38,935 bases of DNA, from contig DUCS01000011.1 in assembly GCA_012959695.1 (NCBI GenBank), positions 1 to 38,935 of the forward strand, in the 5' to 3' direction. The notes under the pieces are model-generated. The model searched no databases and was not told the origin of the DNA. It worked only from the letters and a program-made list of their open reading frames with translations. How positions within the stretch are numbered: position 1 is the first letter of the stretch; each line of letters begins with the position of its first letter. Shown piece after piece: positions 24,066-32,586 of the stretch. Made by a program: the position numbers and the translations under genes. This DNA comes from Cycloclasticus sp. Lineage in GTDB: Bacteria > Pseudomonadota > Gammaproteobacteria > Methylococcales > Cycloclasticaceae.

Positions 24066-25328
24066 TTATTCAATATCGCCAACAGGTGCGGCAAAGGCAT
24101 CGGAGATGAGTTGGTCAACATTGGAGCCTGTTAAGCTGTTTAAAAAGGCAAGCAGGTCACTTCGCTCGCTATTTGAAAGGTGAAGCGGATTGATAAGAGG
24201 ATCTAAGTCTTCATTTGGGACGCCGCCTTGATCATAAAACGTAATGACTTCTTCTAGTGTTTTAAACGCGCCGTCGTGCATATAAGGTGCGGTTAAAGCG
24301 ATGTTTCTGAGCGTTGGGGTTTTATATTTCCAGCGATCTTCAGTGTTTTCGGTTATCTCGTACAGGCCAACATCATTTGGTTTTTTTTCTGCAACAGAGT
24401 CGAATAAGTCAGAGTCAATTTCAATGGTTTGACCGGGCGCGAGGGTGATGAATTGCTTGGCTGGACGCGGTTGAGTGGAAACGCGAAAACCGTGTCCCGT
24501 ATTGTGTAAGCGGTTATTAGTAAACAAGGCATTGTCTTTTTTGACGGTATGACAGGCAATGCAATTTGCTTTACCCGCAAATAATTTAAAGCCTCTTTTT
24601 ACTGACGGGCTAACAGCGCCTTCGTTATGACCAAAATACCATTGATCAAATGGGCTGTTGGCAGAATTTAAAGTACGCTGATAGGTGGCTAATGCCATCC
24701 CAATAGTCTCCATGCTGAGCGGTTTGTTGAAAACAGCTTTAAATAAACCGTTGTAATCATTTAATGCGAGAATTTTTCGCAGAACAATGGCTGGTGATGG
24801 ATTGCCCATTTCATTATGCGCTAATAAAGGCCCCCAAACTTGTTGTTCCAAGCTATCTTCCCGCCCGTCATGGAAAAGCTTTTCGGCATATGCAACATTG
24901 AATAAAGTCGGGCTGTTGCGGCGGCCGGATCGTCCTTCAATGCCAACGGCAGTGGCCAGCTCATTATGGCTAAAGCCCTGTTCGGCAACATGACACATGG
25001 CGCAAGAGAAGGTGTTGTTGAGTGATAACCGGCGGTCATAAAAAAGCTTACGGCCTAGCTCAATTTTCTCAACTGTAATGGGGTTGTTGCTTGGTACGGG
25101 AACGGCGGGTAAACCAAGAGGCGGTTGTTTGACAAGGGCGATTAAGTTGGCTTTTTGGCCAACGCGAGTTGTTAAGGCCTTGCTGTTGGTTTTATATTCT
25201 TTGGTTTCATAGCCTGTTTTATCATCTCCAGCACCATGTAGTAGTGGTGCGCCTGTGTTCATTTTCTCGGCAAAGCTAACAGAGCTTAATAACGAAATGA
25301 GCAGACAATAGAAGAGTTTGTTTTTCAT
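24066..25328 (-). CDS. MauG-like di-heme cytochrome c peroxidase, methanethiol oxidase-associated
   Basis: This 420-residue exported di-heme cytochrome has a signal peptide MKNKLFYCLLISLLSSVSFA and two heme-c sites, CAMCH (109-113) and CIACH (256-260). It belongs to the CcpA/MauG family, which either reduces H2O2 or carries out post-translational oxidation of partner proteins. A mauG-like gene next to methanethiol oxidase and an SCO1-like gene is a known neighbourhood of bacterial mtoX. I therefore infer that it helps mature or support MtoX. ATG 25328 was preferred to the TTG at 25343 because it gives a clean signal peptide, but no ribosome site is evident for either. Confidence 0.88.
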   Translation of the reverse strand: MKNKLFYCLLISLLSSVSFAEKMNTGAPLLHGAGDDKTGYETKEYKTNSKALTTRVGQKANLIALVKQPPLGLPAVPVPSNNPITVEKIELGRKLFYDRRLSLNNTFSCAMCHVAEQGFSHNELATAVGIEGRSGRRNSPTLFNVAYAEKLFHDGREDSLEQQVWGPLLAHNEMGNPSPAIVLRKILALNDYNGLFKAVFNKPLSMETIGMALATYQRTLNSANSPFDQWYFGHNEGAVSPSVKRGFKLFAGKANCIACHTVKKDNALFTNNRLHNTGHGFRVSTQPRPAKQFITLAPGQTIEIDSDLFDSVAEKKPNDVGLYEITENTEDRWKYKTPTLRNIALTAPYMHDGAFKTLEEVITFYDQGGVPNEDLDPLINPLHLSNSERSDLLAFLNSLTGSNVDQLISDAFAAPVGDIE

Positions 25329-25375
25329 AATAAATGATAACAAAGTCGGTAAAAGGTGGGGTGTGTTAATGAATA

Positions 25376-26059
25376 TTATTCTAACGTCAGTGTTTTAACG
25401 TCATTAATTAAAATATCGGGGTGTAAAAATCCAACGCTGTATATTTTTCTAATTTTTTTGTTCTTATCAATTAAATAAACGCGCAAGGTATGTGAAAAGG
25501 TACCGCTTGATTGGCCTTCATCGTCATATTCTTGTTGAATGGTTTGATTGTAACCTTCAAGAATAGGGCGTAATTCTTTTTGTGATTCGGTGGTTAAAAA
25601 ACGCCAATCGGTCTGTTGTGTTTCCAGTGATTTCGCGTAGTCCGCCATTACCTCTGGCGTGTCGTGCTTTGGGTCAAAGCTTAATGTAATCAGGCGTAAA
25701 TCATCTTTAAGGCCTGCTTTTGATAAGCGGCGCTTTATTTTATGGAAAACAGCCGTTGATAAGGGGCAGCCGTTAACGTCATTACAGGTGGCGTAGATGA
25801 AGCTTAATAAAACAACTTTATCGCCCATCAAGTCATATAGTTTTTGCGATGTTCCGGCGCTATTAATAACCTTGCCATCGGTTGCTTCGCCATAAATGGG
25901 TTGGCGATAAGTGCCGGCTTTAGGTGCTTCAAATGTTAGCGGTCCGTAGCCTGGCGCCAACAAAATAGGTGCTTGGAGTATATCAATGTCTTTTTTATCG
26001 TTGTGCGCAAGGACATTTAACGAGAATAAAGCGATTGATAATAAAAATAGTTTTTTCAT
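25376..26059 (-). CDS. SCO1/SenC-like periplasmic copper chaperone
   Basis: This 227-residue thioredoxin-fold protein has a signal peptide MKKLFLLSIALFSLNVLAH. The copper/redox cysteines are Cys92 and Cys98 in ATCNDVNGCPLS (a C-x5-C spacing found in one SCO1 subgroup), and the copper-binding His is in FSHTLRVYLID. SCO1 proteins deliver copper or reduce thiols at copper sites, and methanethiol oxidase is a copper enzyme in characterised bacteria. I therefore infer a role in loading copper into MtoX. ATG 26059 is chosen because the upstream in-frame start at 26104 would put a terminator stem inside the gene. Confidence 0.88.
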   Translation of the reverse strand: MKKLFLLSIALFSLNVLAHNDKKDIDILQAPILLAPGYGPLTFEAPKAGTYRQPIYGEATDGKVINSAGTSQKLYDLMGDKVVLLSFIYATCNDVNGCPLSTAVFHKIKRRLSKAGLKDDLRLITLSFDPKHDTPEVMADYAKSLETQQTDWRFLTTESQKELRPILEGYNQTIQQEYDDEGQSSGTFSHTLRVYLIDKNKKIRKIYSVGFLHPDILINDVKTLTLE

Positions 26060-26065
26060 AAGCTT

Positions 26066-26092
26066 AAAAAAAGGGCTACCCGAAGGTAGCCC
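26066..26092 (-). terminator. UUCG-loop terminator between mtoX and the SCO1-like gene
   Basis: On the - strand, GGGCTACC and GGTAGCCC form an 8-bp perfect stem closed by the extra-stable TTCG tetraloop, followed by seven T. It lies between the mtoX stop and the SCO1-like start and would end most transcripts after mtoX, allowing only partial readthrough. The T-run ends 6 bases before the SCO1-like ATG, which leaves no room for a normal ribosome site. Confidence 0.9.
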
Positions 26093-26107
26093 AAATGTGG
26101 CCAAGGG

Positions 26108-27505
26108 TTACTTGCTTAATGAAGCAATTATTTTATCAGCACTTTTTAGAGCAGGCGCTTTTGAATAAAGAGCATTTGAACCAAAACGCATTTGGTGAGG
26201 GAAACCGTATCCGGCTTTAACAAAATCGATATCCATTGTTTTTGTTAATTTTGTGCCATCCCAATCATATGCGCGGAAGAACTGATCTTGGTTCTCGCCT
26301 TTTTTGTCCCAGTTAGACAATACAGATGATGTGAAGTACATACGTTTGCCATCCCAGCTTGACGATACCATGTTCACTTGCTTACCAATTTGCTCTTCGA
26401 AAACAACTTTTGGTGCATGTGGGTTTGAAATATCAAACAAACGAGTTTTGCCGTCCATCAAAGTGTTTACCCATAATTGGTTGTCATCACTTGTGATTGA
26501 AATATCAACAGGAAGAGGAATTTTAGATGCATCGCCAATGGCAGCAACATCTTTTGCTTGCCATTCGCCTTTATCATCTTCATAAATCAACCAAAGTCTT
26601 GATGTTAATGCAGTTGTTGTGAAGCAATAATTCTTATCTGAACCCCAAGCACAACGAATTTCTAGAGGTGCTCCTGGTACATCTAATACTTTCTTAGGTT
26701 GCTTTGTGTGCAAGTCCCAAATCACAACAGTGTTACCCATGCGTTTCATCGCTTCAGCATCGCCAACAAGTTTGCCGAAATCCATCATGTAGTTGTTCCA
26801 GCCAGTGAAAGATGAAGTCACCATCATGTTGCGACGAGGAAGAACGCGAACGTCATAACCATAACCGTCAGCAAATTGGCCGGATTTTTTAGCACCGTTC
26901 AATTTCTCATCTGTTGGCATCCAATGTGTGGCAACAAAATCACCAGCATTTGTATATTCAACTAATGCAGTACGGCCACCGTGATCTTTATTGTTAGATA
27001 AGCCACTGATCATCATTGTGCCAGGCATTGCGTAGGTTGTGTGTGGTCCTACAACGCCGCCGCTATCTGCAACAAAGTTTTCAATAGTTTTATGTAGCGT
27101 AGGTTTTGATGGGTTTGTGTGGACATCAAAAATAAAGATTTTGTTTGTGTCTAAACCGCCAGCCCAAAGGTATTTACGATCATCAGTAAAGCCTGAGTGA
27201 TGCGCTTCGTTACGACCACCAACAGAAATACTGTTAATCACTTTGCCGTAGTCTTTGTCTGCAGGGTTAACTGAAACAGTCACCATTTTGTCTTGTTCGT
27301 CACCAACGCCAATAACGCCCAACGTCCAAACGTAAACGTAATCTTCTTGGCCAACAATTTTAGCCATATAAGGAGACATGCAGGTTTCATCAGCTTGCGC
27401 TTGTTGTGGTAGAGCAGTTAAGCCCATGCTTAGCGCAACGGCAGAACCTAGCATCACGCCTTTAAGCGTTTTGCCAAATTGTGTAAAAGTTTGTTTTGTA
27501 ATCAT
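26108..27505 (-). CDS. mtoX: Methanethiol oxidase (SBP56/SELENBP1 family), periplasmic
   Basis: This 465-residue selenium-binding-protein 56 family enzyme is predicted to oxidise methanethiol to formaldehyde, H2S and H2O2. The signal peptide (residues 1-38, cut after QAQA) exports it. The mature N-terminus and the NEAHHSGFTDD motif (100-110) match the conserved metal-site histidines of the family. Repeated beta-propeller-like segments follow (IFIFDVHTN, VVIWDLHTK, TRLFDISN). It is followed by SCO1-like and MauG-like genes, the known mtoX arrangement. A strong GAGG ribosome site precedes ATG 27505. The upstream 166 bases carry a shared regulatory element. The family identity is firm; the specific substrate is inferred from family and context. 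Confidence 0.9.
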   Translation of the reverse strand: MITKQTFTQFGKTLKGVMLGSAVALSMGLTALPQQAQADETCMSPYMAKIVGQEDYVYVWTLGVIGVGDEQDKMVTVSVNPADKDYGKVINSISVGGRNEAHHSGFTDDRKYLWAGGLDTNKIFIFDVHTNPSKPTLHKTIENFVADSGGVVGPHTTYAMPGTMMISGLSNNKDHGGRTALVEYTNAGDFVATHWMPTDEKLNGAKKSGQFADGYGYDVRVLPRRNMMVTSSFTGWNNYMMDFGKLVGDAEAMKRMGNTVVIWDLHTKQPKKVLDVPGAPLEIRCAWGSDKNYCFTTTALTSRLWLIYEDDKGEWQAKDVAAIGDASKIPLPVDISITSDDNQLWVNTLMDGKTRLFDISNPHAPKVVFEEQIGKQVNMVSSSWDGKRMYFTSSVLSNWDKKGENQDQFFRAYDWDGTKLTKTMDIDFVKAGYGFPHQMRFGSNALYSKAPALKSADKIIASLSK

Positions 27506-27568
27506 TTCCCAACCTCGTGTTTATAATTTAGAAGACTATCCCCCTATAGTGCGGTGGGATATATTTCG

Positions 27569-27589
27569 TTGAGCGGTTACGCGGCTCAA
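27569..27589. promoter_or_regulatory. Inverted repeat upstream of mtoX
   Basis: TTGAGC and GCTCAA form 6-bp arms with a 9-base spacer, about 64 bases before the mtoX start. It could be an operator or part of an upstream promoter element. Its distance from the 40-nt shared element (27626-27665) is 37 bases. Confidence 0.35.
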
Positions 27590-27625
27590 TGAGCGAATCA
27601 TTCTTTCATTCTTAGATAAGCGAAA

Positions 27626-27665
27626 TAAGGTCTAAATAAGACAAAAGCGTGCTATTCATGCCAAA
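27626..27665. promoter_or_regulatory. 40-nt element shared with the regulator gene start (mtoX copy)
   Basis: This 40-base block reads TAAGGTC, 7 bases, GACAAAAGCGTGCTAT, 2 bases, ATGCCAAA. The same layout with the same spacing is found at 30401-30440; by my count 33 of 40 positions agree. On the - strand it ends with the box TTTGGCAT and lies 121-160 bases upstream of the mtoX start, in the activator position. I infer a binding site for the GlxA/AraC-type regulator encoded at 30433-31443. Confidence 0.7.
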
Positions 27666-27672
27666 AAAGACG

Positions 27673-29919
27673 TTAGTTGCTCTCGTTACCACGACACCAT
27701 TGGGTTATTTGGTTAATGGAAGATGAGTATCCGAGGTCTGCAATTTGCTGCAAACGTTCATATTCGAGTGTTCCAACGGCTTCAACGGACAGTAGCAGGT
27801 ATAAACTGGCTAAACTTTTCTCATCCGTTTGCATGCTTTTATTAACAGCGGCTAATGTCATGGAACGGGAGATAATATCGAAAATACTGGGGATGTATTC
27901 TTTACGGCGAAATGGGTTTAAGCGTGCGAATAAAAGCTTTAGCCCAGAACCTGACATCAAGCGACTTTCATTGCTGGCTAAATCAACTTTAGGTGAAATA
28001 TCGACAGCAATAATTTTACCGCCAGAATACAAGTCATTCATTACATCAATGGGCAGGTTATTGAGTACACCGCCATCGACTAACAAATCACCTGACTGAA
28101 TAACAGGCGGAACCATCGCTGGCAAACTCATGCTGGCGCGAAGTGCGTCGGCAATAGAGCCTCTGGTGTGGATGACTTGTTCTGCACGGGTTAAGTTTGT
28201 GGAGACACAGAAAAAAGGAATAAATAAATCTTCAATCCTCTTGTCACCAAGGGCGCCTTCAAGGTTCTTTTCAATTTTTCTCCCCTTAATAAGCGAAACA
28301 ATGGGCAGTGTGAAATCAAAAAACCGTCGGAAATATTGTGAGCATAAATCAAAAATTCTGTTTGAATCGTATTGTAGGGCAACCGCTGCAGCGATAATGC
28401 CGCCAATGCTCGTTCCACCAACAGCATCAATGGTCACGCCGTTTTCTTCTAATGCGCGAATCACGCCAATGTGTGCATAACCACGTGCGCCACCGCCTCC
28501 CAATACCAGTGAGTTTGCTTGTCCGGTGAGAATTCTGGAGAGTCGAGCATAGTCTTCCGACTGTTCTTTGCGAACATGGTTGAAACTTATAATCCTACGT
28601 TCTTCTAACCAGTGTTTGGTACCTGATATATCTGTTGTGTCGGCAGGGTGAATAAGAATTAAACTTTGCTTTAAGTGGCTGGAAAAATCCCATAGGGCAT
28701 TAATTTTCTTTTCTTGCTCGCTTTGTTTTACATCTGAATCAAAGTCAGCTACCAGCAATAAATGGTCGGCTTGTCGAATAGCCCGTTCAGACCAATTAGA
28801 CCAAGGGCCGTCAGCAATCAAAATAACATTCTCATAAGCGGCTTCTTTTTTATGTAGCCATTGTGAAATATCCGTGTTTCTGATGCTGGTACTGGGTTCG
28901 TTAGCGATGCCTTCACGATCGAGTTCTTTATCAATATCTTGTGCTGTAAAGCAGGCTGTCGAGCCGGTAAATTTCATTGTCTCAAAAAAGGAAGCGACAA
29001 ATTCGCTGATATCAAAACCTTCGTGAACAGGGGTGATGACAAAGGTGGTTCCTTTTTGATGTTGCTGCGCCTTATTTGCGACTTGGTTTCGTAACCTGGT
29101 TGCAACAATGCGGGCAATTCGAAGTATGATTTGTGGGTGGGAGCTGGTCAGTTTTTCAAAGCCGGTGCTTGAAAGCCGAGCCAAGACGGTATCGCGTGCT
29201 GCCGTTAAGGTAGATTGGCGTTCAGAACGGGTGAGTAATGCCACTTCGCCGACTGTTTCACCCGAGACCATCTCAGTCACAAGTCTGTGTCGGCCATTAC
29301 CTTCATCGATAGTGGCTCGCATTCTCCCAGATAAAATTAAATAAATTGAATCGCCCTCGTCGCCTTCGCGGTAGAGTATTTCTCCGCTATTTAGGCTTCG
29401 CCACTCAATGCCACCTAACAGTTTTTTAAGACCGGCGGGGTCATAAAGGCCGAATAAACGGCTCATATACGTGGCAAATTGTCCTCTATGGATGATATTC
29501 CGGATGGTTTTATCAAACTGGAACTGAGCACTAGGGGATTGATCTAATAGAGGGGTTAATGTTTTATTCTCAATAGACAGCAGCACGGTCGGTTCGGTAG
29601 CTACTAAAGAGACGTTTCCTTTGACGCTCAAACGGGCATTAAAGTGCCCAACTAGCGAGCCAGCCTCAAACTCATCAATGGCTTGTTTGCCCGTAATGTG
29701 GTTTTCTAAAACAAAAGAAAGCTTGCCCGAAACAATGATATAAACGGTGTGTTGATTCTCATAATTGAACAACATCTTTTCGTTAGTTTGTAGCGTTAAC
29801 TCACCACTATGATTTGCAAGCTCCTCCAGCATAGCGGAGTCCATCCGCATTAGATCGGGTGAGTTTCGCAGAATATCGTATCGATCTTTAATGGTGGTGG
29901 TCATAAGTTTCAGGGGCAT
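27673..29919 (-). CDS. Cyclic-nucleotide-binding / patatin-like phospholipase (NTE-like)
   Basis: This 748-residue protein carries two cNMP-binding-type domains (about residues 20-135 and 150-270), a middle region, and a C-terminal patatin domain. The patatin part has the oxyanion loop GGGGARGYAH (~473), the Ser elbow GTSIG (~500) and the DGG Asp near 614, so the Ser-Asp dyad is intact. The architecture resembles neuropathy-target-esterase proteins, lysophospholipases controlled by nucleotide binding. ATG 29919 or ATG 29904 (MTTTIKDRY) could be the start; neither has a clear ribosome site. It sits between mtoX and the DUF4242 gene on the same strand but is separated from both by at least 88 bases. 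Any link to methanethiol metabolism is not evident. Confidence 0.88.
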   Translation of the reverse strand: MPLKLMTTTIKDRYDILRNSPDLMRMDSAMLEELANHSGELTLQTNEKMLFNYENQHTVYIIVSGKLSFVLENHITGKQAIDEFEAGSLVGHFNARLSVKGNVSLVATEPTVLLSIENKTLTPLLDQSPSAQFQFDKTIRNIIHRGQFATYMSRLFGLYDPAGLKKLLGGIEWRSLNSGEILYREGDEGDSIYLILSGRMRATIDEGNGRHRLVTEMVSGETVGEVALLTRSERQSTLTAARDTVLARLSSTGFEKLTSSHPQIILRIARIVATRLRNQVANKAQQHQKGTTFVITPVHEGFDISEFVASFFETMKFTGSTACFTAQDIDKELDREGIANEPSTSIRNTDISQWLHKKEAAYENVILIADGPWSNWSERAIRQADHLLLVADFDSDVKQSEQEKKINALWDFSSHLKQSLILIHPADTTDISGTKHWLEERRIISFNHVRKEQSEDYARLSRILTGQANSLVLGGGGARGYAHIGVIRALEENGVTIDAVGGTSIGGIIAAAVALQYDSNRIFDLCSQYFRRFFDFTLPIVSLIKGRKIEKNLEGALGDKRIEDLFIPFFCVSTNLTRAEQVIHTRGSIADALRASMSLPAMVPPVIQSGDLLVDGGVLNNLPIDVMNDLYSGGKIIAVDISPKVDLASNESRLMSGSGLKLLFARLNPFRRKEYIPSIFDIISRSMTLAAVNKSMQTDEKSLASLYLLLSVEAVGTLEYERLQQIADLGYSSSINQITQWCRGNESN

Positions 29920-29963
29920 TCATAGTAGAGGTGTTAATACGGTTGGTATCATTATGCACGACA

Positions 29964-29993
29964 AGACAGGCCGGTGTTAAAACAAGCCTGCCT
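29964..29993. terminator. Hairpin between DUF4242 gene and patatin gene
   Basis: AGACAGGC and GCCTGCCT pair over 8 positions (one G-T) with a 14-base loop, just after the DUF4242 gene on the - strand. There is no T-run, so it may be a weak terminator or processing site only. Confidence 0.35.
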
Positions 29994-30007
29994 TATCTTA
30001 TGTGGAT

Positions 30008-30283
30008 TTAAGCTTCTGAAGTAGTTGGGTCGATAATAGATTTTACTTCTGAAATGGTGTTTGCTGGAAATCCACCTCTTTCAGCGTGCTCGCGAACAGC
30101 GTCTTCGTTTGGGGCTATATAAACACAATATATTTTGTCGTTAGTAACGAAGCTTTCGAGCCATTGTGTTTGGCTGCCCATTTCACGTAACACCCCACAA
30201 GACGTTTGAGAGATACCTTGTAATTCTTCACTTGATAATTGTCCTACGTTTGGGATTTCACGTTCGATAATATATTTTGGCAT
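30008..30283 (-). CDS. DUF4242 small protein (SCO4226-like)
   Basis: This 91-residue protein matches the DUF4242 family, ferredoxin-like small proteins, one of which binds nickel. The pattern is MPKYIIEREIPNVGQLS, then CVYIAPNEDAVREHAERGGF, then a VKSIIDPTT end. The conserved His in REHAERGGFPAN is the likely metal-contact region. It diverges from the GlxA/AraC regulator, with a 149-base shared promoter region containing TGGCAT-like boxes, so it is probably under that regulator. Function in this context is unknown. Confidence 0.82.
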   Translation of the reverse strand: MPKYIIEREIPNVGQLSSEELQGISQTSCGVLREMGSQTQWLESFVTNDKIYCVYIAPNEDAVREHAERGGFPANTISEVKSIIDPTTSEA

Positions 30284-30322
30284 GGTAATTCCTTGGTTGT
30301 GGTTAAAGGTAAAACAGCTAGC

Positions 30323-30366
30323 ATGCCAATAATTGAATGATGTGATTTACGACGACCCTTTGGCAC
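30323..30366. promoter_or_regulatory. Two TGGCA-like boxes between DUF4242 and regulator genes
   Basis: ATGCCAA at 30323-30329 (TTGGCAT on the - strand, preceded by AAAACAGCTAGC) and TTTGGCAC starting at 30359 lie in the divergent gap. The first resembles the shared element (AAAA, GCTA and ATGCCAA in the same order but shorter spacing). They may be weaker sites for the same regulator. Confidence 0.35.
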
Positions 30367-30400
30367 ATAGGTTCATTTTGATGCTTAAAGTGACGTATAG

Positions 30401-30440
30401 TAAGGTCGATTAATGACAAAAGCGTGCTATATATGCCAAA
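30401..30440. promoter_or_regulatory. 40-nt element shared with the mtoX upstream region (regulator copy)
   Basis: Same block as at 27626-27665: TAAGGTC (30401-30407), GACAAAAGCGTGCTAT (30415-30430) and ATGCCAAA (30433-30440). The last part includes the ATG start of the regulator gene. Binding here would block ribosome or polymerase access, so autorepression is the likely effect; the mtoX copy is placed for activation. Confidence 0.7.
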
Positions 30441-31443
30441 TATAACCATTTCTATCCTCGCCATCGAAGAAACGATGATTTACACCTTGGCGGGCCCCTA
30501 CGATATTTTTTCAACAGCGGCAATTTGTAGCCAGCAAATGGCGCCGAAGAAACCTGCTTTTGTCACTAATACATCAATAGTGGGTTTAAAGAAAGGCGCG
30601 TTGACTTGCTACAACGGCTTGACGATTGAGTGCCAACAGTCACTTGATGAGGTGGACAATACGGATCTTATTATCCTTCCTTCCATTGAGTTTCTTGAGC
30701 AGCCATTTTTAAGCAAATACCCTGAATTACAAGGCTGGTTGACGAAGCATTATAAAAAAGGCACAGTGATTGCCAGTGTGTGCGCAGGGGCTTTTTTATT
30801 GGCAGAAACGGGTTTGTTAGATGGCAAAATAACCACAACCCACTGGGCGTTTGCGGATGATATGCAGGCAAAGTTCCCTGATGTTGATGTGCATAGCGAT
30901 AAGATCATTACAGAGCAAGATAATTTGGTTTGCGCGGGCGGGGCAACGTCTTGGCAAGATTTGGTGAGTTATTTAGTAGAGAAGTATTCAACGGTAGAAA
31001 CGGCAAAACATATCGACCAGTTTTTCCTTTTAAATACACGCCAAGAAGGTCAGCTTCCATACAAATTATTAAAAAGCATGGTACGCCATGAGGATAAGGT
31101 GATTAAGGAGTCGCAAGAGCTGATTGAGAGCAGTTTGGTTGAGGAAGAATTGCTGGCTAATGTTACACAAGCATCAGGCTTGCCCGAAAGGACCTTTAAG
31201 CGCCGATTTAAAGTGGCGACAAAACAAACGCCGAATGAATATATTCAAAATGTGAGAATTGATACGGCTAAAAATTTATTGTTGGTATCGTCTTCCACCG
31301 TGCAAGAAATAGCGGAGCAAGTTGGGTTGATGGATGGCAGTTACTTTAGGCGGCTGTTTAAGCGAAAAACCAGTTTGACTGCACAAGACTTTAGACGAAG
31401 TTTCGCCAGCTCTGAGGAGTCAAAAAAAGTATTACGAAAATAA
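30433..31443 (+). CDS. GlxA-family transcriptional regulator (DJ-1/PfpI domain plus AraC HTH)
   Basis: This 336-residue regulator has an N-terminal amidotransferase-like (DJ-1/PfpI) domain, about residues 1-180, with the nucleophile-elbow-like IASVCAGAFLLAETGLLDG and the THWAFADDMQ segment. A C-terminal AraC-type double helix-turn-helix follows (ASGLPERTFKRRFK and VQEIAEQVGLMDGSYFRRLF). GlxA-type regulators sense small metabolites such as carnitine or glycine betaine. ATG 30433 is chosen because the upstream GTG at 30424 adds only three residues and has no support. It diverges from DUF4242, precedes mddA by 141 bases, and sits beside a sequence shared with the mtoX upstream region, so methanethiol-related control is likely. 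Confidence 0.9.
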   Translation: MPNITISILAIEETMIYTLAGPYDIFSTAAICSQQMAPKKPAFVTNTSIVGLKKGALTCYNGLTIECQQSLDEVDNTDLIILPSIEFLEQPFLSKYPELQGWLTKHYKKGTVIASVCAGAFLLAETGLLDGKITTTHWAFADDMQAKFPDVDVHSDKIITEQDNLVCAGGATSWQDLVSYLVEKYSTVETAKHIDQFFLLNTRQEGQLPYKLLKSMVRHEDKVIKESQELIESSLVEEELLANVTQASGLPERTFKRRFKVATKQTPNEYIQNVRIDTAKNLLLVSSSTVQEIAEQVGLMDGSYFRRLFKRKTSLTAQDFRRSFASSEESKKVLRK

Positions 31444-31584: not shown

Positions 31585-32307
31585 ATGAGAGCGTTAGTGA
31601 TGTTGTACGGAGTGGTTTGTTATTTTGCATTTTTTGTGGTGTTTGTTTACTTTATGGGTTTCGTTGGCGATGTGTTTGTGCCCGTTTCAATTTCATCAGA
31701 AGTTGAAGTGTATTCACAAAATGCCTTAATGATTAATATCGGTTTAATGCTGATGTGGGGCGTGCAACACAGCGTGATGGCGCGCGGTTGGTTTAAAGAC
31801 ATGATTGCATCTGTGGTGCCACATCATGTTGAACGCAGTACCTATTGTTTAGCATCGGCTATCGCTTTGGGTGCGTTAATGTACTACTGGCAACCAATGG
31901 AAGGCATTATTTGGCAAGTTGAAAATGCAATGATGGCTAATGTGTTATGGGGCTTTTTCGGGTTAGGCTGGGCGCTAATCTTTTTATCAACATTCCTAAC
32001 AGATCACTTTGATTTATTTGGCTTGCGTCAACCGTGGTTACATTTCGTGAAAAAGACGTACACACCGGTTGTGTTTACTGAAGTGCTTTTTTACCGCTGG
32101 ATTCGTCACCCAATGATGTTGGGTTTGTTCATCGCATTTTGGTCATTACCAACAATGACAGTAGGCCATTTGGTATTCTCAATTGGCATGTCAATTTACG
32201 TGTTGGCCGGCATTCACTTTGAAGAAAGAGGCTTGGCCAGAGAGCTTGGTCAAACATATGTGGATTATCAAAAACGTACGTCAAAAGTCATTCCTAAAGT
32301 TTACTAG
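31585..32307 (+). CDS. mddA: Methanethiol S-methyltransferase (membrane), DMS-forming
   Basis: This 240-residue multi-pass membrane protein belongs to the MddA family, which transfers a methyl group from SAM to methanethiol to form dimethyl sulfide. Matching segments are the N-terminal LYGVVCYFAFF, the QHSVMARGWFK region (about residues 61-71), the PHHVERSTYCL segment and the C-terminal HFEERGLARELGQTYVDYQK SAM-binding end shared with NnrU/ICMT proteins. RHPMMLG is the methyltransferase core. The GGGGAAAGG ribosome site is strong. It is followed by a perfect terminator and stands alone. It lies 4 kb from mtoX and directly before the methionine-cycle operon. Family assignment is good; activity is inferred. 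Confidence 0.85.
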   Translation: MRALVMLYGVVCYFAFFVVFVYFMGFVGDVFVPVSISSEVEVYSQNALMINIGLMLMWGVQHSVMARGWFKDMIASVVPHHVERSTYCLASAIALGALMYYWQPMEGIIWQVENAMMANVLWGFFGLGWALIFLSTFLTDHFDLFGLRQPWLHFVKKTYTPVVFTEVLFYRWIRHPMMLGLFIAFWSLPTMTVGHLVFSIGMSIYVLAGIHFEERGLARELGQTYVDYQKRTSKVIPKVY

Positions 32308-32377: not shown

Positions 32378-32460
32378 CTTGAATAAGGAACGCTGCGACA
32401 GGGCTTCCCTGCTAGGCTTATTCAAGGTGTCGGTTTTAAATCGATTAGTTAACGGCGTTC
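32378..32460 (+). promoter_or_regulatory. S-adenosylhomocysteine (SAH) riboswitch
   Basis: P1 is CTTGAATAAG (32378-32387) with CTTATTCAAG (32417-32426), a perfect 10-bp pair. P2 is CAGGG-CTT-CCCTG (32399-32411). The conserved GAACGCTGCGAC strand (32388-32399) holds GAACGC, which pairs with GCGTTC at 32455-32460 as the pseudoknot helix, and CTAGGC leads into the closing P1 arm. This order matches the SAH-riboswitch class found in proteobacteria upstream of ahcY. SAH riboswitches turn genes on when SAH accumulates. It lies 126 bases before metK and controls the operon containing ahcY. I see no terminator hairpin in the following leader, so the expression platform is unclear. Confidence 0.9.
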
Positions 32461-32586
32461 ATTATTAACAGGAAACTGAAATAATGGGCGTTGTGCAGAG
32501 GTGATTCATTCACTTTCTACCCTTCTTGGTAACAGCGCACATTACTCATATTCCAGTGTCTATTTTTATAATGAGGCGGATTTATA

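Follow-up and report, generated by a model that had tools for sequence, protein, structure and literature searches.

AraC itself makes use of tandem direct half-sites that lie about two helical turns apart in its araI1-I2 region. At the level of the GATR regulators, CdhR of Pseudomonas aeruginosa is described in the available sections of PMC5806209 as binding direct repeats in the region that separates its own gene from a divergent operon, and as affecting its own gene. Its half-sites read GGTCGC and are separated by a 15-bp spacer, and those of GbdR, SouR and ArgR are said to be similar (PMC5806209). Regarding methanethiol oxidation, the available sections of PMC5739008 report that in Ruegeria pomeroyi the gene of an IclR-type regulator (SPOA0268) adjoins mtoX, SCO1 and mauG-like genes, and that transcription of mtoX is enhanced about 14-fold by methanethiol. 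The word AraC does not occur in the text of PMC5739008, and a search of the largely open-access literature on mtoX and methanethiol regulation found no AraC-type regulator or operator for mtoX.

Here we describe a locus of Cycloclasticus sp. (contig DUCS01000011.1, positions 1 to 38,935; this whole stretch of 38,935 nucleotides is referred to as the window) in which a 40-nt element occurs both at mtoX and at the gene of a regulator. We consider it likely that the GATR regulator encoded at 30433-31443 has its operator in this 40-mer, a predicted site that would have been shared ancestrally with mtoX and now exists as one copy per gene. As with CdhR, in what the available source describes, a regulator with a DJ-1/GATase-1-like domain and an AraC HTH is encoded divergently from its target operon and direct-repeat half-sites are present. 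In contrast to CdhR, GbdR, SouR and ArgR, the half-sites are here offset by 20 and CTAWWTATGMCAAA-like, GGTC being confined to the left margin of the first half-site (columns 4-7), the predicted target is a methanethiol oxidase, and the operator is duplicated with a cassette separating its copies. The locus resembles that of SPOA0268 in having a regulator gene that adjoins mtoX, SCO1 and mauG-like genes; however, the regulator family is unrelated, the bacterial class is another one, and the available part of the Ruegeria source describes no operator. The tandem direct layout is like that of araI1-I2, whereas sensor domain, sequence and target differ. GATR regulator-operator pairs are known, and what would be new here is mtoX as the target.

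Genes of the locus and the two copies of the element

The regulator gene (30433 to 31443, + strand) was taken to start at the ATG at 30433, its open reading frame opening at a GTG at 30424. The product, GATR/GlxA/FtrA-like, carries the N-terminal DJ-1/PfpI domain and the C-terminal AraC-type HTH that characterize a GATR (PF01965, 60.7 bits; PF12833, 67.1; PF00165, 45.8; each above its cut-off) and scores below the NCBIfam equivalog cut-offs for FtrA (167 against 425) and GbdR (97.7 against 480). A predicted structure model with a mean pLDDT of 65.6 was set aside and no conclusion was drawn from it. The methanethiol oxidase gene mtoX (SBP56 family; 26108 to 27505, - strand) is assigned by its 739.8 bits against NF052453, which pass the equivalog cut-off of 650, and by its neighbours: a SCO1/SenC family gene downstream (25376 to 26104, - strand) and a gene for a MauG-like di-haem cytochrome c peroxidase family protein (24066 to 25343, - strand), above the Pfam CCP_MauG cut-off and below the NCBIfam one for MauG. 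Two further genes form the cassette, both on the - strand: one encodes a patatin with two cNMP-binding stretches and an NTE P-loop domain (27673 to 29919) and the other a DUF4242/SCO4226-like protein (30008 to 30283) that is divergent from the regulator-side copy of the element. Downstream of the regulator lies a gene for an MddA-like methanethiol S-methyltransferase (31585-32307; NF045656, 268.7 bits, just below the cut-off of 270), and an SAH riboswitch is found at 32379-32467 upstream of metK-ahcY (RF01057, 42.5 bits, cut-off 37).

Copy 1 of the element (27626 to 27665, + strand) lies in the intergenic stretch that runs from mtoX to the 3' end of the patatin gene, at a distance of 121-160 nt from the start of mtoX (27505); its tandem half-sites, offset by 20, cover 27632-27645 and 27652-27665. 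Copy 2 (30401 to 30440, + strand) has its half-sites at 30407-30420 and 30427-30440 and spans the regulator ATG at 30433 plus the in-frame GTG at 30424. A first-pass annotation had reported this pair with its identical spacing and 33 of 40 identities, placing one copy upstream of mtoX and the other over the regulator start, and every one of these particulars was confirmed. The possibility of a chance repeat was ruled out, given that no other direct ungapped 40-mer pair of the window matches as well (the runner-up reaches 29 of 40) and that order-2 Markov simulations of the window (n=5) gave maxima of 28-29. Clear similarity between the copies stops at the edges of the 40-mer. Throughout the 1.7-Mb genome (about 80% complete), exact matches to the 16-mer core are restricted to these two places, and the core pattern with up to three mismatches occurs in 12 places against 13 for a reversed control, that is, at background level. 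Between copy 1 and mtoX, an alignment with three relatives places about 60 extra bases at 27530-27610, which hold a possible hairpin (TTGAGC...GCTCAA); the window-wide Rfam search gave no match there.

Distribution and conservation in relatives

Close orthologues of the regulator (E <=1e-100) are present in 12 of the 311 genomes of the order: seven from the genus of the window, one from another family (G029) and four Methylococcales relatives, whose family also holds methanotrophs. These genomes are related, and all genome counts are inflated thereby. The first-pass annotation had expected the element to be conserved in relatives that share the genes, and this is what was found, since it stands at the regulator in 12/12 genomes and upstream of mtoX in 10/10 of those in which mtoX neighbours the regulator. 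Full-length or nearly full-length matches to the model of the element (positions 1-40 or 2-39) occur in 12/12 orthologue genomes and in 0/299 of the others, two of which (G267 and G241) gave weak partial matches. Because eight of the 12 genomes supplied training sites for the model and the four Methylococcales supplied none, the latter are the independent part of the 12/12 count. Strict filters and a limit of 21 scored candidates per genome applied to the order-wide search, which can therefore miss weak sites; with these settings, seven genomes with more distant regulator homologues (E 1e-62 to 1e-80) showed no model match. As for mtoX itself, 47 places were found, of which 30 loci were retrieved (seven from the genus of the window) and the other 17 were covered by the genome-wide model search only; at the mtoX loci of other taxa, model R2 detected the element in 0/23 (L046-L068).

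The 18 genomes of the genus divide into six with both mtoX and a regulator orthologue, one with mtoX only, one with the regulator only and ten with neither (Fisher p 0.0025). Conservation and this co-distribution, together with half-site symmetry and presence on both sides of the cassette, are the features that the sequence itself provides. The link of the regulator to mtoX is nevertheless not obligatory because of two genomes: in G029, mtoX lies on another contig than the regulator and lacks the element, the regulator keeping its operator, and in G010 (83% complete) the regulator and operator are present and no mtoX was found. Phylogenetic footprinting lends broad support to the earlier proposal that the element is the operator of this regulator and connects it directly to mtoX, with the mtoX of G029 falling outside that connection. 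In G015 (L071:5281-6319) a break near codon 41 interrupts the regulator frame, and the operator of the regulator itself is changed at otherwise conserved positions, the mtoX operator being intact; the SCO1 and MddA-like genes of this genome look broken too, which would point to a reductive symbiont genome or to assembly errors.

The size of the predicted regulon is small. No third site was found in the window's own genome, where the next match has an E of 0.17 (150 candidates scored). A wider regulon was rejected, as the own genome offers only six further matches (E 0.17-0.85) and the next matches of the relatives, for which 108 candidates were scored, are partial with E of at least 0.013. Membership of mddA was also discarded as a weak link: it adjoins the regulator in G000, G002, G010, G011 and G029, is located elsewhere in G007, G012 and G015, and no operator was found between it and the regulator in the window; 17 of the 18 genus genomes carry it, two with broken frames. 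These data bear on the idea that a different protein, a more global factor, binds the element, which would then overlap the regulator by coincidence. Such a factor is compatible with the present sequence-level evidence, but the restriction of full-length matches to close-orthologue genomes and the lack of a third site in the own genome make it very unlikely.

It is important to remark that the element behaves as conserved DNA and not as coding sequence, because in the Methylococcales it ends 14 nt before the regulator start codon and because the mtoX copy of G007 has no ATG. Together with the stop of similarity at the 40-mer edge, the same observations rule out a relic of a coding start. The element need not overlap the start codon, to judge by the absence of such an overlap in the Methylococcales. 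A matrix built from the Methylococcales sites only (three distinct) scores 42.5 at position 27626 of the window and 29.2 at 30401, the next score being 10.9, and ranks the known sites top in 7/7 relative loci scanned. A related proposal is that the element acts as RNA or as coding sequence through a small upstream frame, MTKACYICQI (30413-30445), which overlaps the regulator start and would be translated and coupled to it. AAGG lies seven bases upstream of the ATG at 30413, an NTG occupies the same place in 7/8 regulator-side or shared copies, and TAA is kept in 8/8 together with ATA, a less used Ile codon that accounts for 110 of the 718 Ile codons across 33 ORFs of the window. However, the element is kept where the start codon is absent, namely in 4/4 mtoX copies, in G012 and in the four Methylococcales, and the T of NTG also brings half-site 1 closer to half-site 2; a translated frame is thus extremely improbable as the reason for conservation.

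Half-site layout and the proposed mode of control

Columns 7-20 and 27-40 of the element constitute a direct repeat with an offset of 20, and the most fitting reading of the whole is a pair of half-sites in tandem, 20 bp apart. In column permutations that used 15 rows of related sequences, the direct-repeat score was reached by 78, 23, 2 and 3 of 2000 permutations for arms of 10, 12, 14 and 16, respectively, against 156, 488, 50 and 82 of 2000 for the inverted-repeat score; an inverted-repeat operator, being the weaker of the two, was rejected. The offset falls within the layout of GATR operators, two direct half-sites about 20-21 bp apart. The half-sites would read roughly CTAAATAaGACAAA-N6-CTATTTATGCCAAA, with each subunit of a regulator dimer taking one of them. 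When compared with the GGTCGC half-site, GGTC is found at columns 4-7 in 16/16 sites and has no repeat in the second half.

At the edge of copy 2 lies TATAGT (30396 to 30401, + strand), a putative -10 of the regulator promoter that is not among the predictions of a consensus promoter scan. It occurs at the left edge in 6/8 regulator-side or shared copies (G015 has TATATT and G012 lacks it) and in 0/4 mtoX-only copies, a difference that fits an operator that was retained beside mtoX when the regulator promoter was not. We infer that the regulator binds both copies and that, since copy 2 is placed just after the putative -10 and over the start codon, it would repress its own gene by binding there. 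Copy 1, next to a promoter, would activate the mtoX-SCO1-mauG genes, a role that its position fits. The inducer would probably be methanethiol or one of its products. From the operator edge nearest mtoX to the mtoX start, the distance is 57 nt in G007, 58 nt in G002 and 121 nt in the window, and in L086 it is about 170 nt (by eye); it thus varies from 57 to about 170 nt and indicates no fixed activator position.

Whether copy 1 has any function at all must be considered, as the element might be only the operator/start region of the regulator itself, copy 1 being a relic left after the cassette separated the genes. Copy 1 still holds the start context ATGCCAAA, the mtoX of G029 does without a copy, and autoregulation may predate the link to mtoX, judging from degenerate sites at distant homologues without mtoX. 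Yet copy 1 keeps 32, 32, 36, 32, 32 and 34 of 40 positions in the six pairs among four species, while its adjacent 40-nt flanks have drifted to 10-22 (left) and 5-20 (right); moreover, mtoX copies devoid of ATG (G007) or of TATAGT (4/4) keep both half-sites. A functionless copy 1 is therefore unlikely.

Regarding the signal that an operator-bound regulator might respond to, Cys117 is invariant in 10/10 aligned regulators. Its aligned counterpart in isocyanide hydratase is the Cys of the SVCTGS motif, which we take to be the catalytic nucleophile of that enzyme. A more speculative proposal, possible rather than probable, is that the system is a dedicated methanethiol-response switch of marine Gammaproteobacteria, in which Cys117 would sense methanethiol or its oxidation products (H2S, formaldehyde, H2O2) and a single operator type, present only at the regulator's own gene and at mtoX, would turn the oxidase on; the cassette would have split the two genes, with the operator kept on both sides and its copies specialised.

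Probable history of the proposed operator and its meaning

In six genomes (G011, G012 and the four Methylococcales) mtoX and the regulator gene are directly divergent and share one copy of the element, and in four (G000, G002, G007 and G015) mtoX has its own copy and the cassette stands between the genes. The two-copy state of the window looks derived from one shared divergent operator. Ancestrally, a single operator between divergent mtoX and regulator genes would have served both, and in this Cycloclasticus lineage the DUF4242-patatin cassette would have come to separate them, with an operator on each side. Among the 18 genus genomes, DUF4242 is confined to the four that have the cassette, and so is the patatin orthologue with at least 69% identity; G029 also has a patatin of 74%, and copies of 41-61% are found in G000, G008, G011, G023 and G029. 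In the tree, G011, which has one shared operator, falls among the cassette-bearing genomes with weak support, so that the cassette may have been lost in G011 or gained repeatedly.

The 40-nt direct repeats might also be read as the boundaries of a mobile 2.7-kb cassette, produced by recombination or target duplication, instead of an operator. They do flank the DUF4242 and patatin segment, which is found in four genomes and is missing from this place in G011, G012 and the four Methylococcales. However, single copies persist without the cassette (Methylococcales, G029), always at the regulator, and neither cassette gene is a recombinase, so this origin is highly improbable as the whole explanation; it may account for how the copies arose, not for why they were kept.

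With the element taken as an operator, more distant homologues of the regulator (33-39% identity) are informative about its age. They lack mtoX in their loci of about 4 kb and have a degenerate element near their own promoters. Model R2 found no site at 14 loci of this kind; in a lower-stringency scan of eight of them, the site upstream of the regulator ranks first (six) or second (two), with scores above zero only in L131 (12.4) and L130 (2.1), L118 and L119 being identical at the scanned site and the L132 site looking unrelated by eye. These degenerate sites suggest that self-control is older and that mtoX was a later target; autoregulation may thus precede the mtoX link. By eye, the operator-like sites of L118 and L131 are divergent from a methyltransferase-like and an OsmC-like gene, respectively, and not from mtoX.

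In the marine sulfur cycle, the oxidation of methanethiol is an important step. For mtoX of Cycloclasticus and marine Methylococcales, the present analysis gives a specific and testable regulator, an operator sequence and a very small predicted regulon. The locus also looks like a clean case in which a shared divergent operator was duplicated when a cassette split a gene pair, with both copies being kept.
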